Below are positions 2,624 to 37,364 of a DNA stretch of 64,000 bases, in pieces. Origin of the DNA: Olsenella uli (GTDB taxonomy: Bacteria; Actinomycetota; Coriobacteriia; Coriobacteriales; Atopobiaceae); NCBI RefSeq assembly GCF_016899935.1, contig NZ_JACJJK010000006.1, forward strand, positions 62,001 to 126,000, given 5' to 3'. The notes under the pieces were generated by a model. The model was not told the DNA's origin. It saw only the letters and a list, made by a program, of their open reading frames with translations, and ran no database searches. The position numbers and the translations under genes were made by a program. How positions within the stretch are numbered: position 1 is the first letter of the stretch; the number at the start of each line of letters is the position of its first letter.

Positions 2624-3940
2624 CTACTCGCTCGCCAGCTCCGTGGGCCAGACCGCGTCCTCGGGCATGACGGCGCTTCCGGACGCAACGTCGGCGGGGA
2701 TGCGGCTGTCGGCGGCCATGAGCTCGTTGATCGTCACAAAGCGGTAGCCCTTCGCCTGGAGGGCCTCGATGATCTTGGGTAGCGCCTCGAGGTCCTGGTC
2801 GCGGTTGCCGCCTCCATCGTGCATGAGGACGATCGCGCCCGGGTACGCCCCGTTCGTGCAGTTGGACACGATCGCGTCCGGGCCGGGGAGGCGCCAGTCC
2901 TCGCTGTCCAGGTTCCAAATCACGGAGGCCGAGAAGCACCCGCCGGACGCGAGCCAGGTCTCGGGCGTGAGGTCACCGTACGGCGGGCGCAGGACCGTCG
3001 TCGCCGGGGCGCCCGCGCCGCTGATCGCCGAGAACGCGTCATTGACCTCGGAGCGCAGCGCGTCCGCGTCGAGGGTCGTGAGCTGCTGGTGGTTCTGGGT
3101 GTGCGAGGCGACCTGCGAGCCCTGGTCCTCGATCGCCTTCACAAGATCGGGCTTGGCCGCAGCGGCCGACCCCAGGCAGAAGAATGTCGCGCGGGCGTCG
3201 TACTTGCTCAGGATGTCGAGGTAGCGCTGCGTGTAGTCGCTCGGGCCGTCGTCGAAGGTCAGCGCGATCAGCTTGGAGCCGTCGTCGGGGGTCGGGTTGA
3301 CGCTCTGGAGCACCGCGTTGCTGACGGGCTCCAGCTCCTCCCCGGGCACCGCCTCGCCCGAGACGTCGCCCACGGTGAACATCTGCCGGCCGGGGCGGCC
3401 CCACTGGGACACAAAGGTGATGGCGCCCACCTGCTCGTAGGGCTGGAGCTTGGGCATGACCACGCGCTCCTCCTGGTGGGAGGCCTCCGTCACGTCCGCG
3501 CCGTCCGAGAAGACGATCTCCTCGTTGCCCTCCGCGCGGAAGTCCTTCGTCTGCTGCTCGTCGAGCTCCTGCCCGCCCACCGTGGCGGAGAACGGCTCGC
3601 CGGCGCCCTCCGTGAGCACCGTGCCGCCCACCGAGACGAGGTCGCCGGGCGTGACCTCGATCTTCTCGGCCGCAAAGATGTCGGCGAGGGTCGCCTCGGC
3701 GCGCACCTGCGTGAGCGTGCCGTTGACGCGCACGCTCACCGTCCGGTTGGTCCACAGCAGCACGCCGCCGCCCACAAAGGCGACGAGGGCGAGAAGGGCC
3801 ACGACGACGAACCTCCGGGCGCCCCGGGAGAGCCGGTGCCTGGTGCGCGAGGTGGGCCGACGGGCCATCCGCGACGTTGCGTGCGCTACCCGTCGCGTGG
3901 GCGCCGGGGCGCTGTGACGAGGTGTTCCATCCTTCTTCAT
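2624..3940 (-). CDS. Membrane-anchored polysaccharide deacetylase (CE4/NodB domain)
   Basis: The 438-residue protein has a basic cytoplasmic start, one membrane segment (about 43-63), an extracytoplasmic linker region (about 65-215) and a NodB deacetylase domain from about 225. Catalytic motifs are TFDDGP (228-233), the metal-binding SHTQNH (279-284) and RPPYGD (318-323). Such enzymes deacetylate peptidoglycan or another wall polymer outside the cell, often giving lysozyme resistance. The substrate cannot be told from sequence. The segment VSVRVNGTLTQVRAEATLADI looks like a G5/DUF348-type fold seen in cell-wall proteins (shown as 21 residues only in outline: VSVRVNG to TLADI). The gene stands alone and is convergent with pyrE. 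Confidence 0.85.
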   Translation of the reverse strand: MKKDGTPRHSAPAPTRRVAHATSRMARRPTSRTRHRLSRGARRFVVVALLALVAFVGGGVLLWTNRTVSVRVNGTLTQVRAEATLADIFAAEKIEVTPGDLVSVGGTVLTEGAGEPFSATVGGQELDEQQTKDFRAEGNEEIVFSDGADVTEASHQEERVVMPKLQPYEQVGAITFVSQWGRPGRQMFTVGDVSGEAVPGEELEPVSNAVLQSVNPTPDDGSKLIALTFDDGPSDYTQRYLDILSKYDARATFFCLGSAAAAKPDLVKAIEDQGSQVASHTQNHQQLTTLDADALRSEVNDAFSAISGAGAPATTVLRPPYGDLTPETWLASGGCFSASVIWNLDSEDWRLPGPDAIVSNCTNGAYPGAIVLMHDGGGNRDQDLEALPKIIEALQAKGYRFVTINELMAADSRIPADVASGSAVMPEDAVWPTELASE

Positions 3941-34961: not shown

Positions 34962-35537
34962 ATGCCCGCCCAGAAACCCGCAGCAAAACCCACCGCCATC
35001 AAGATTGTCTGCGGCCTCGGCAACCCGGACGCCGAGTACGCCCGCACCCGGCACAACGCCGGCTTCGCCACGATCGACGCCGTGGCCGCGCGCCGGGGCG
35101 TGCGCTACTGGAAGTCCGAGGCCGGCGCGCAGGTGGCCTCCATCACGGTGTCTGACAAGGACGGCGAGAGGCGCGAGGTCCTTCTCGCCAAGCCGATGAG
35201 CTACATGAACACCTCGGGCGGGCCGCTCTCCAAGCTGGCGCGCGCCCACCACGTGAGGCCCGCCGAGATCCTGGTGGTCCACGACGAGGTCGACCTGGCC
35301 GCAGGCGAGGTCAAGCTCAAGCTAGGCGGCGGTCTCAACGCGCACAACGGCCTGCGCTCCGTCGCCGACAAGCTCGGCAGCCGCGACTTCGCGCGCGTGC
35401 AGTTTGGCATCGGCCGTCCGCCCGGACGCATGGCCGTGGCCGACTACGTGCTGCGCGAGCTCAAGGGCTCCTTCCTCGAGGACTTCGAGCTCACCGTCGA
35501 GCGCGCCGCCGACCTCGTGGAGCAGACGCTGGCATAG
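34962..35537 (+). CDS. pth: Peptidyl-tRNA hydrolase
   Basis: The 191-residue protein has the Pth signatures VCGLGNPDAEYARTRHNAGF, with the catalytic His in RHNAGF, KPMSYMNTSGGPL, VVHDEVDLAAGEVKLKLGGG and NGLRSV. It releases peptides from stalled peptidyl-tRNA. I chose the ATG at 34962 behind GAGGAGC. The gene order glmU-prs-pth is common in bacteria with low or high G+C. It is convergent with the hepT-mntA module. Confidence 0.95.
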   Translation: MPAQKPAAKPTAIKIVCGLGNPDAEYARTRHNAGFATIDAVAARRGVRYWKSEAGAQVASITVSDKDGERREVLLAKPMSYMNTSGGPLSKLARAHHVRPAEILVVHDEVDLAAGEVKLKLGGGLNAHNGLRSVADKLGSRDFARVQFGIGRPPGRMAVADYVLRELKGSFLEDFELTVERAADLVEQTLA

Positions 35538-35553
35538 GGGCCGCGCGGCAGGT

Positions 35554-35907
35554 CTAGGGCTTTCGTTTGGCCAGCTCCTCGCACAGGGCCGGAATGTCCC
35601 TGCTCACGATGTCCCAAGCCATCTCCTTGTCGGCTTGGTAATAGACATGTGCAAGCAGGTTGCGAAATCCTTTGATGTTTCTCCAAGGCTGGTCGGGGAG
35701 GGCCTCCTTGAGATCATCGGATAGCATTCCGGCATCTTCAACAATCTGAAGCACCAGTATCATGATGGCGTCATAGGCCAGCAGGACGGCTTCGGAATCA
35801 TCGTTGATGAACGAATCGCGCGTCGTAGCGGTAAACGAGATGCGGGCAGCCAGGCGTTCGCCGTTCTTCACTATCCGGTCGATGCGTCGCTGGTCCTTAT
35901 CGAGCAT
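35554..35907 (-). CDS. hepT: HepT-like HEPN-domain toxin (DUF86)
   Basis: The 117-residue protein is an all-helical HEPN protein. The catalytic motif is RNLLAHVY, fitting R-x4-H-x-Y, where Tyr is the residue AMPylated in characterised systems. It is probably a ribonuclease toxin. The upstream gene encodes the MNT nucleotidyltransferase antitoxin, but here it is frameshifted so that its frame runs directly into the hepT ATG (35907) without a stop. T-ending codons and base composition are less G+C-rich than the neighbours, which suggests acquisition. Confidence 0.85.
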   Translation of the reverse strand: MLDKDQRRIDRIVKNGERLAARISFTATTRDSFINDDSEAVLLAYDAIMILVLQIVEDAGMLSDDLKEALPDQPWRNIKGFRNLLAHVYYQADKEMAWDIVSRDIPALCEELAKRKP

Positions 35908-36276
35908 AGACGAGCACCTGCTCCCGCTCGATCTGCGCAAGAAAGTCGGCGTCAAAGTCCTTGTCGCGCGCGCGCGCACAACGTCTACGCTGGCGCCGCA
36001 CTGACGGGAGAACTCCTCCCGTATCTCATCCAGGTCGCCAAAATCGAGACTGGCGCCCCGCTCGATGCGCAGGTCAAGATCGCTCTCGTCGGTGGCATCG
36101 CCGCGCGCTTGAGACCCAAAGACGTAGGCACGGGTCACATCAAAGCGCGGGAGAATGCGCGCCGCCGCTTCGGCATGGCACGTCTTTCTCTCTGCCCGCG
36201 CCCGGTCACCTTTGCCAAGAATCCCGAGTAGCGCGTACCCAAATGGCTCCTGAGGCGCGCGTAAACCCGGATTCAT
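35897..36276 (-). pseudogene. mntA: MntA-like nucleotidyltransferase antitoxin, frameshifted in a CG repeat
   Basis: The catalytic GSQARGDATDESDLD fits GS-x10-D-x-D of MNT nucleotidyltransferases, preceded by RAYVFG. After VDVVRAR the frame crosses a (CG)6 tract (35965-35976). With one CG unit fewer the protein would end RDKDFDADFLAQIEREQ and VLVYAR, with its TAA (35899-35897) overlapping the hepT start. As sequenced it instead fuses in frame to HepT. No start codon lies just upstream; the first in-frame ATG (36276) is inside element E8, so the N-terminus may have been replaced by the element. Confidence 0.7.
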
Positions 36277-36340
36277 GGTCGTCCGGACAAGAATCCCGAC
36301 TAGCGCACGGCGAGAAGAGCGCGCTACTCGGGATTCTTGG
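36215..36340. repeat. E8: four-arm element with CCAAGAATCCCGAGTAGCGCG arms
   Basis: The outer arms (36215-36235 and 36320-36340) are a perfect 21-bp inverted repeat. Inside are an inverted copy (GCGCGTAAACCCGGATTCATG) spanning 36258-36278 and a direct copy (CAAGAATCCCGACTAGCGCA) at about 36288-36307, so the order is + - + -. The centre GGTCGTCCGGACAAG resembles GGTCTTTTGGACATG in E10. It abuts the mntA remnant. Confidence 0.8.
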
Positions 36341-36461: not shown

Positions 36462-36521
36462 GGCTTGTTGGAGGGGCCGCGCGGCCCCACAACGAGGGAA
36501 TGCAGGAGAGGAGTGCGGTTA

Positions 36522-37364
36522 ATGTACAAGATCCTCGAAAAGACGCAGTTCTCGGAGAAGGTGTTCAAGTTCCGCATCGAGGCGCCCCGGATGGCCAAGC
36601 ACGCTCACGCCGGCCAGTTCCTGATGGTGCGCGCCAACGAGACGGGCGAGCGCGTCCCGTTCACGCTCGCGGGCTGGAACGCCGACGAGGGCTGGGTCGA
36701 GTTCATCTTCATGGTGATCGGCAAGACCACGGAGATGCTGTCCACCTACAACGAGGGCGACTCCATCAAGGACGTCACCGGCCCGCTGGGCATGCCCACC
36801 GAGATGGACGAGGGCCCCTGCGCGGTCATCGGCGGCGGCGTGGGCCTGGCCATCGCCTACCCCGTTGCCAAGCACCTGGTGGAGACCGGCCACGAGGTCC
36901 ACGCCATCATGGGCGCGCGCACCAAGGACCTGCTGCTGCTTGAGGAGCAGTTCCGCGAGCTCCTGCCGGCCGACCACATCCACATCACCACCGACGACGG
37001 CTCCTACGGCGAGAAGGGCGTGGTCACCGCGCCGCTCGAGCGCCTGCTGCAGGAGAAGGCCGTCTCCCAGGTCTTCTGCGTCGGCCCCGTGCCGATGATG
37101 AAGTTCTCCGCCCTCACGGCCGAGAAGTACAACACGCCGATCACCGCGTCGCTCAACCCGATCATGGTCGACGGCACCGGCATGTGCGGCTGCTGCCGCG
37201 TCGAGGTCGACGGCCAGACGAAGTTCGCCTGCGTCGACGGCCCCGACTTCGACGCCACCAAGGTCGACTGGAACGACCTTCGCGCGCGTCAGGCCGCGTA
37301 TCTCACCGAGGAGGGCCAGTCCCTCAAGGCCTACGAGGAGGCGAACTGCGCATGCCACAGGTAA
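36522..37364 (+). CDS. nfnA: NADH-dependent ferredoxin:NADP oxidoreductase, small subunit
   Basis: The 280-residue protein has an FAD-binding ferredoxin reductase fold (ERVPFTLAGWN), an NAD-binding domain (AVIGGGVGLAIAYPVAK) and a C-terminal [2Fe-2S] site in GTGMCGCCRVEVDGQTKFAC. This is the NfnA layout, also seen in PyrK-like and sulfide dehydrogenase subunits. With NfnB it couples ferredoxin, NAD and NADP pools by electron bifurcation. The start follows GGAGAGGAG. The adjacent nfnB supports the assignment. Confidence 0.9.
   Translation: MYKILEKTQFSEKVFKFRIEAPRMAKHAHAGQFLMVRANETGERVPFTLAGWNADEGWVEFIFMVIGKTTEMLSTYNEGDSIKDVTGPLGMPTEMDEGPCAVIGGGVGLAIAYPVAKHLVETGHEVHAIMGARTKDLLLLEEQFRELLPADHIHITTDDGSYGEKGVVTAPLERLLQEKAVSQVFCVGPVPMMKFSALTAEKYNTPITASLNPIMVDGTGMCGCCRVEVDGQTKFACVDGPDFDATKVDWNDLRARQAAYLTEEGQSLKAYEEANCACHR

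Follow-up and report, generated by a model that had tools for sequence, protein, structure and literature searches.

Apparent slip in a CG tract joins the mntA and hepT frames of a probably decaying MntA–HepT cassette in Olsenella uli

The closest described counterpart of the locus considered here is the type VII HepT–MntA toxin–antitoxin system of Shewanella oneidensis (SO_3166/SO_3165), in which an MNT antitoxin gene lies upstream of a HEPN toxin gene and shortly overlaps it. The description of the Shewanella complex defines the two proteins by the motifs GSx10DxD (MntA) and Rx4HxY (HepT), assigns the holding of metals to D39, D41, and D71 of MntA, and has adenosine contacting Q85 and Q87 (PMC7641770). 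HEPN domains of family PF01934 are described as "occasionally fused to MNT," as in the HEPN–MNT fusion on plasmid pAgK84 (PMC3710099, PMC2701414), and, according to PMC3710099, the RNase residues are as a rule missing from fused HEPN domains. Toxin and antitoxin are also covalently linked in one chain in the single-polypeptide toxin–antitoxin described in PMC4826407, as they would be in a product of the open frame reported here.

The window (the whole stretch of DNA that was analyzed, 64,000 nucleotides) carries an MntA–HepT pair on its minus strand (Table 1), in the antitoxin-first order expected of type VII pairs. The catalytic motifs that the original prediction claimed for both proteins are present in the translation, as GS-QARGDATDES-DLD in the MntA part and RNLLAHVY in the HepT part, and a third metal-binding Asp is present in MntA. 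All three metal-binding Asp codons lie upstream of the CG tract, the third having been placed by position rather than by superposition. The MntA part matched the Pfam models PF18765 (Polbeta; 35.3 bits) and PF01909 (28.4 bits) above their cut-offs, and the HepT part matched PF01934 (HepT-like) with 46.5 bits against a cut-off of 23.5. The locus differs from the Shewanella system in that a single joined frame replaces two adjacent complete genes, the 3' end of mntA is shifted so that the C terminus of MntA is replaced, and there is no normal mntA start. It also scores below the cut-off of 60 for each of the NCBIfam equivalog models NF047752 and NF047751 (37 and 24.6 bits), and PADLOC returned only the candidate families PDC-S09 and PDC-M05A. 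Translation from 36276 to 35554 encountered no internal stop, which confirms that with six CG units the frame is open into hepT.

Table 1. Features of the MntA–HepT locus and its surroundings (window coordinates)
Feature	Position	Strand	Remarks
pth, left flank	34962..35537	+	presumably peptidyl-tRNA hydrolase
Joined MntA–HepT open frame	35554..36276	-	240 aa from ATG 36276; 312 aa from TTG 36492
hepT, uninterrupted frame	35554..35907	-	ATG 35907; Rx4HxY at 35664-35641
Former 3' end of mntA, now out-of-frame linker	35908..35964	-	orthologue comparison; pLDDT <50 at residues 106-118
(CG)6 tract	35965..35976	-	exceeds the corresponding L009 site, which lacks a CG run, by 2 bases
MntA core up to the tract, ancestral frame	35977..36156	-	GS codon 36117; DxD 36081 and 36075; third Asp 35985; PF18765/PF01909
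Two dispersed hairpin repeats	36215..36340		AATCCCGA(G/C)TNGCGC ... GCGCNACTCGGGATT; immediately 5' of, and extending into, the start of the mntA frame
Reductase-like gene, right flank	36522..37364	+	presumably ferredoxin-NADP reductase type

The only close orthologue found, locus L009 on contig G019:C153, belongs to a different species of the same genus. A search of 31 genus genomes with the cassette DNA gave matches in five, two of which have the cassette (the window's own genome, G000, and G019), while G003, G008, and G016 gave short matches of 23 to 68 bases. The mntA gene of L009 is intact (99 aa), and its TAA overlaps the hepT ATG, the arrangement proposed for an mntA with five CG units in the window. 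Comparison with this intact gene confirmed that mntA of the window is out of frame, and the stretch between the tract and hepT still encodes an MntA-type tail when read in the frame of L009. Differences between the two copies at first, second, and third codon positions number 5/3/16 before the tract and, in the L009 frame, 3/1/7 after it. They number 3/4/6 in the first 22 codons of hepT, suggesting less constraint there, and 9/6/30 in the C-terminal part of hepT, suggesting coding constraint. This is the pattern of coding constraint that would have lasted until recently, the N terminus of HepT excepted, and the counts before and after the tract point to a recent slip. As their sequences read, the two copies are damaged at different places, hepT of L009 having lost its frame through an 83-bp deletion.

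The cassette appears to be a newcomer at its site. The reductase gene is present in all 31 genus genomes, and 30 loci were compared, G020 having yielded just a 49-base match and no locus; 29 of the 30 reached pth and could be assessed (L093 begins close to the end of a contig). The cassette is present between pth and the reductase gene in 2 of these 29 genomes and absent from the other 27, in which the gap measures 120 to 330 bases. The L009 cassette (2974-3533) lies between the same two genes as the cassette of the window (35554-36276) but in the opposite orientation relative to them. The G+C content is 0.59 for the cassette frame and 0.55 for hepT versus 0.69 for the window. The rarity of the cassette, its opposite orientations, and its low G+C content favor acquisition; the gene pair was probably imported, and a mobile cassette is the natural reading. 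A single insertion followed by an inversion and two separate insertions are both compatible with the opposite orientations. A perfect 14-nt direct repeat, AGGGGCCGCGCGGC, at 35536-35549 and 36472-36485 brackets the cassette together with the hairpin repeats. It could be a footprint of insertion or inversion, or a chance product of G+C-rich DNA.

The normal start of mntA seems to have been lost. Ahead of its conserved core, mntA has a frame that contains two ATT codons and no ATG, GTG, or TTG before ATG 36276, the sole in-frame mntA ATG. This codon sits between hairpin-repeat arms, and roughly the first 20 codons from it consist of dispersed hairpin repeat without mntA-like sequence; residues 1 to 21 of the 240-residue frame have pLDDT values below 50 in an AlphaFold2 model. 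No Shine-Dalgarno-like stretch precedes ATG 36276, and the mntA ATG of L009 is preceded by GAGGGGAGG. A scan of the locus for promoters and terminators found none and was uninformative. The hairpins belong to a dispersed family, AATCCCGAGTNGCGC ... GCGCNACTCGGGATT, whose members often form tandem pairs of equal spacing. One arm, allowing up to two mismatches, has 8 matches in the own genome, 3 of them at the mntA 5' end, and family members also occur at C10:51738, C49:73861-73982, C49:223216, and C91:136. Among genus relatives, the family is found at the same site in L009 (3572-3732) and in L088, where similar repeats lie between pth and the reductase gene without the cassette.

To place the joined frame in context, 46 other non-redundant MntA–HepT pairs were surveyed, none of which is fused. 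The survey admitted loci with both halves within 700 bases, counted one row per distinct mntA ending, left out loci with one half, and covered part of all matches, with up to 30 loci per search. The offset of hepT relative to mntA is +1 in 27 pairs, +2 in 16, and 0 with an intervening stop in 3; these offsets describe the present state of the pairs, the damaged L003 (same contig as L009), L035, L099, and L119 included. For the frames to fuse, some 68 nt of open hepT frame must precede the former mntA stop; 13 of the 46 pairs have 70 nt or more of such open frame. Where hepT is offset by +1, slipping by +2 close to the end of mntA brings the ribosome into the hepT frame, so that the other 27 +1 pairs would be joined in the same way. 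The hepT start codon falls within the last part of mntA, in the +1 frame, and no stop separates the two; the fusion therefore looks like a by-product of the slip, and selection is unnecessary to explain it.

Broader searches gave the same picture. Matches were found in 25 of 140 genomes of the family and, at E 1e-8, in 35 of 396 genomes of the phylum, and among the matches listed there was no second one that spans both halves free of stops, which speaks against a natural fused family. Those in G117, G337, G164, G203, and G405 cover both halves but with one to three stops; in L103 (G337) both genes share one frame with a stop between them. Plasmid records matching the cassette numbered 1316, and among the 30 listed, two annotated features were present in 27, one in 1, and none in 2, counts that rest on incomplete annotation. 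Viral contigs, scanned with one 27-base word from near the mntA 5' end, gave nothing. The frame in the window resembles recorded MNT–HEPN fusion proteins in having two domains on a single chain but differs from the typical form described in PMC3710099 in that its HEPN domain retains the RNase residues (Rx4H is intact), and fusion is absent from the relatives surveyed; the retained RNase motif disfavors an established fusion. Lesions were also noted in other pairs: L035 has a frameshifted mntA and a stop within hepT, L099 has stops within hepT, and L101, judged by eye, may have shifted frame close to the mntA end.

The explanation to which we give somewhat better than even credence is that a horizontally acquired type VII MntA–HepT cassette, inserted between pth and the reductase gene, is decaying in this lineage and has recently undergone a slip in mntA. 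The frames, the tract, the intact orthologous mntA, and the occupancy of the site are observed. The slip would have lengthened mntA by one CG unit close to its 3' end. It may have gone uncorrected because no MutS_V domain was found in this genome (99.83% complete), a domain present in 11 of 14 control genomes. Given the position and offset of the hepT start, the slip would have fused the two frames automatically. The joined product, if made, would be a poor antitoxin because its adenosine-binding C terminus is replaced. With mntA lacking a normal start, and with translation no longer ending next to the start of hepT, very little native HepT would be made, and this reduction may explain why the toxin frame is tolerated next to a damaged antitoxin.

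Several observations favor this decay. The copy that L009 has at this site is broken too, at another place; the cassette is rare, differently oriented, and of atypical G+C content; no other surveyed pair is fused even where the offset is +1; and the start is weak, with neither a canonical start nor a Shine-Dalgarno-like stretch, while the MntA tail is replaced. Against it, hepT is uninterrupted, its RNase motif is intact, and its C-terminal part seems to have been under constraint. Selection should disfavor an intact toxin paired with a damaged antitoxin, unless expression has ceased. The decay reading also draws on two genomes with one close orthologue, and a recent slip would look no different from a base-calling error.

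The main rival is a sequencing or assembly error, in which case the true tract has one CG unit fewer and mntA and hepT are a normal pair of overlapping genes. The assembly is a 131-contig draft, and the tract is its sole (CG)6 and the longest CG run in its 2.13 Mb. The uninterrupted hepT and the MntA tail still legible after the tract are also what an error would leave. However, six CG units are short for sequencing or assembly errors, and an error would explain neither why mntA lacks a normal start nor why its 5' end carries hairpin repeats. We regard an error as unlikely. The original prediction, which proposed that the tract switches between separate and fused products, had itself allowed for a simple inactivating mutation or a sequencing error, and these prove to be the better readings: the locus has the appearance of a gene in ordinary decay, or of an assembly error, and not of a switch that has evolved.

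Another possibility is that the joined form is tolerated and retained as a single-chain antitoxin–toxin in which the tethered MntA core AMPylates the HepT tyrosine in cis. The AlphaFold2 model consists of two confident domains connected by a flexible, low-confidence linker (mean pLDDT, 84.0; pTM, 0.53), from an alignment of 30 sequences in which some MntA tails were placed over HepT. The metal-binding Asp codons that precede the tract, the intact Rx4HxY, and the MNT–HEPN fusions already on record (PMC3710099, PMC2701414) are compatible with such a protein. But the slip replaces about 22 C-terminal residues of MntA. Judged from spacing rather than superposition, the shift falls about six residues past the equivalent of D71, which would keep the metal site and replace the tail that makes the adenosine contacts in the Shewanella protein (PMC7641770). 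The weak start, the lack of a second fusion among the 46 other pairs, and the retention of RNase residues that recorded fused HEPN domains typically lack (PMC3710099) further weigh against a single-chain function, which we consider improbable. Foldseek returned no match to the model at E 0.001 or better; its top rows were mostly MNT proteins, including chains of HepT/MntA complexes (7bxo, 8xeh), plus unrelated chains, and decide nothing. Among solved structures, sequence search found 1wot only, an MNT. The single-polypeptide toxin–antitoxin mentioned above reportedly involves protein families unrelated to MntA and HepT, and its linked form is said to be the functional gene.

A reversible switch, in which the CG tract gains and loses units so that the population mixes separate and joined products, appears very improbable. 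A direct scan verified the tract, one unit more or fewer alters the relation between the mntA and hepT frames, and both its rank as the longest CG repeat of the assembly and the failure to find MutS_V would suit a switch. Yet CG runs in the window number 142 with exactly three units, 39 with four, 1 with five, and 1 with six, and dinucleotide shuffles of the 64-kb window yielded a mean of 1.01 (CG)6 tracts, with at least one in 59 of 100 shuffles. There are 41 other (CG)5 places in the assembly (43 overlapping matches, two of them from the tract itself). A lone (CG)6 in the genome is in keeping with the tail of the CG-run distribution, and one in a single window is unsurprising by composition. 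Six dinucleotide units are also short for a contingency locus. No second tract length was observed, and the repeat expected to be retained at the same place in relatives of a phase-variable gene is missing from L009, the one close orthologue. Tract length as a switch thus finds no support in the 31 genus genomes, at the homologous place in L009, or in the own assembly, and the titles and abstracts listed in literature searches contained no report of a CG-tract switch in mntA. The different lesion of L009, the lack of fusion in the survey, the lost MntA C terminus, and the missing normal start further count against it. A different disruption without tract variation was to speak against the switch if seen among strains; L009 comes close to this, but it represents another species rather than a strain. 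That the slip created a living single-chain antitoxin–toxin, whose truncated MntA AMPylates its own HepT in cis and whose tract could revert, in a genome where no MutS was found, to give a population mixing separate and joined forms, is likewise very improbable.

As it stands, the locus chiefly illustrates the turnover of such cassettes: the two genomes of the genus that carry this one have it at one and the same site but differ in its orientation and in the lesion. If the joined frame is expressed and harmless, an antitoxin enzyme would have been captured onto its toxin in one mutational step. This would offer a route to the MNT–HEPN fusions already on record, a step that the +1 offset in 27 of the 46 pairs would ease.

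An antitoxin acting in trans was also considered. The own genome contains no second PF01934 match and one other NTase match, at C91:14018 (37% over residues 37-110), which is too distant for cross-neutralization to be assumed. This gene, about 14 kb into contig C91, is of the MNT type and encodes 102 aa; in the region 1447-1870 of L127 it is followed by what, judged by eye, seems to be a truncated HEPN partner similar to that of L051.
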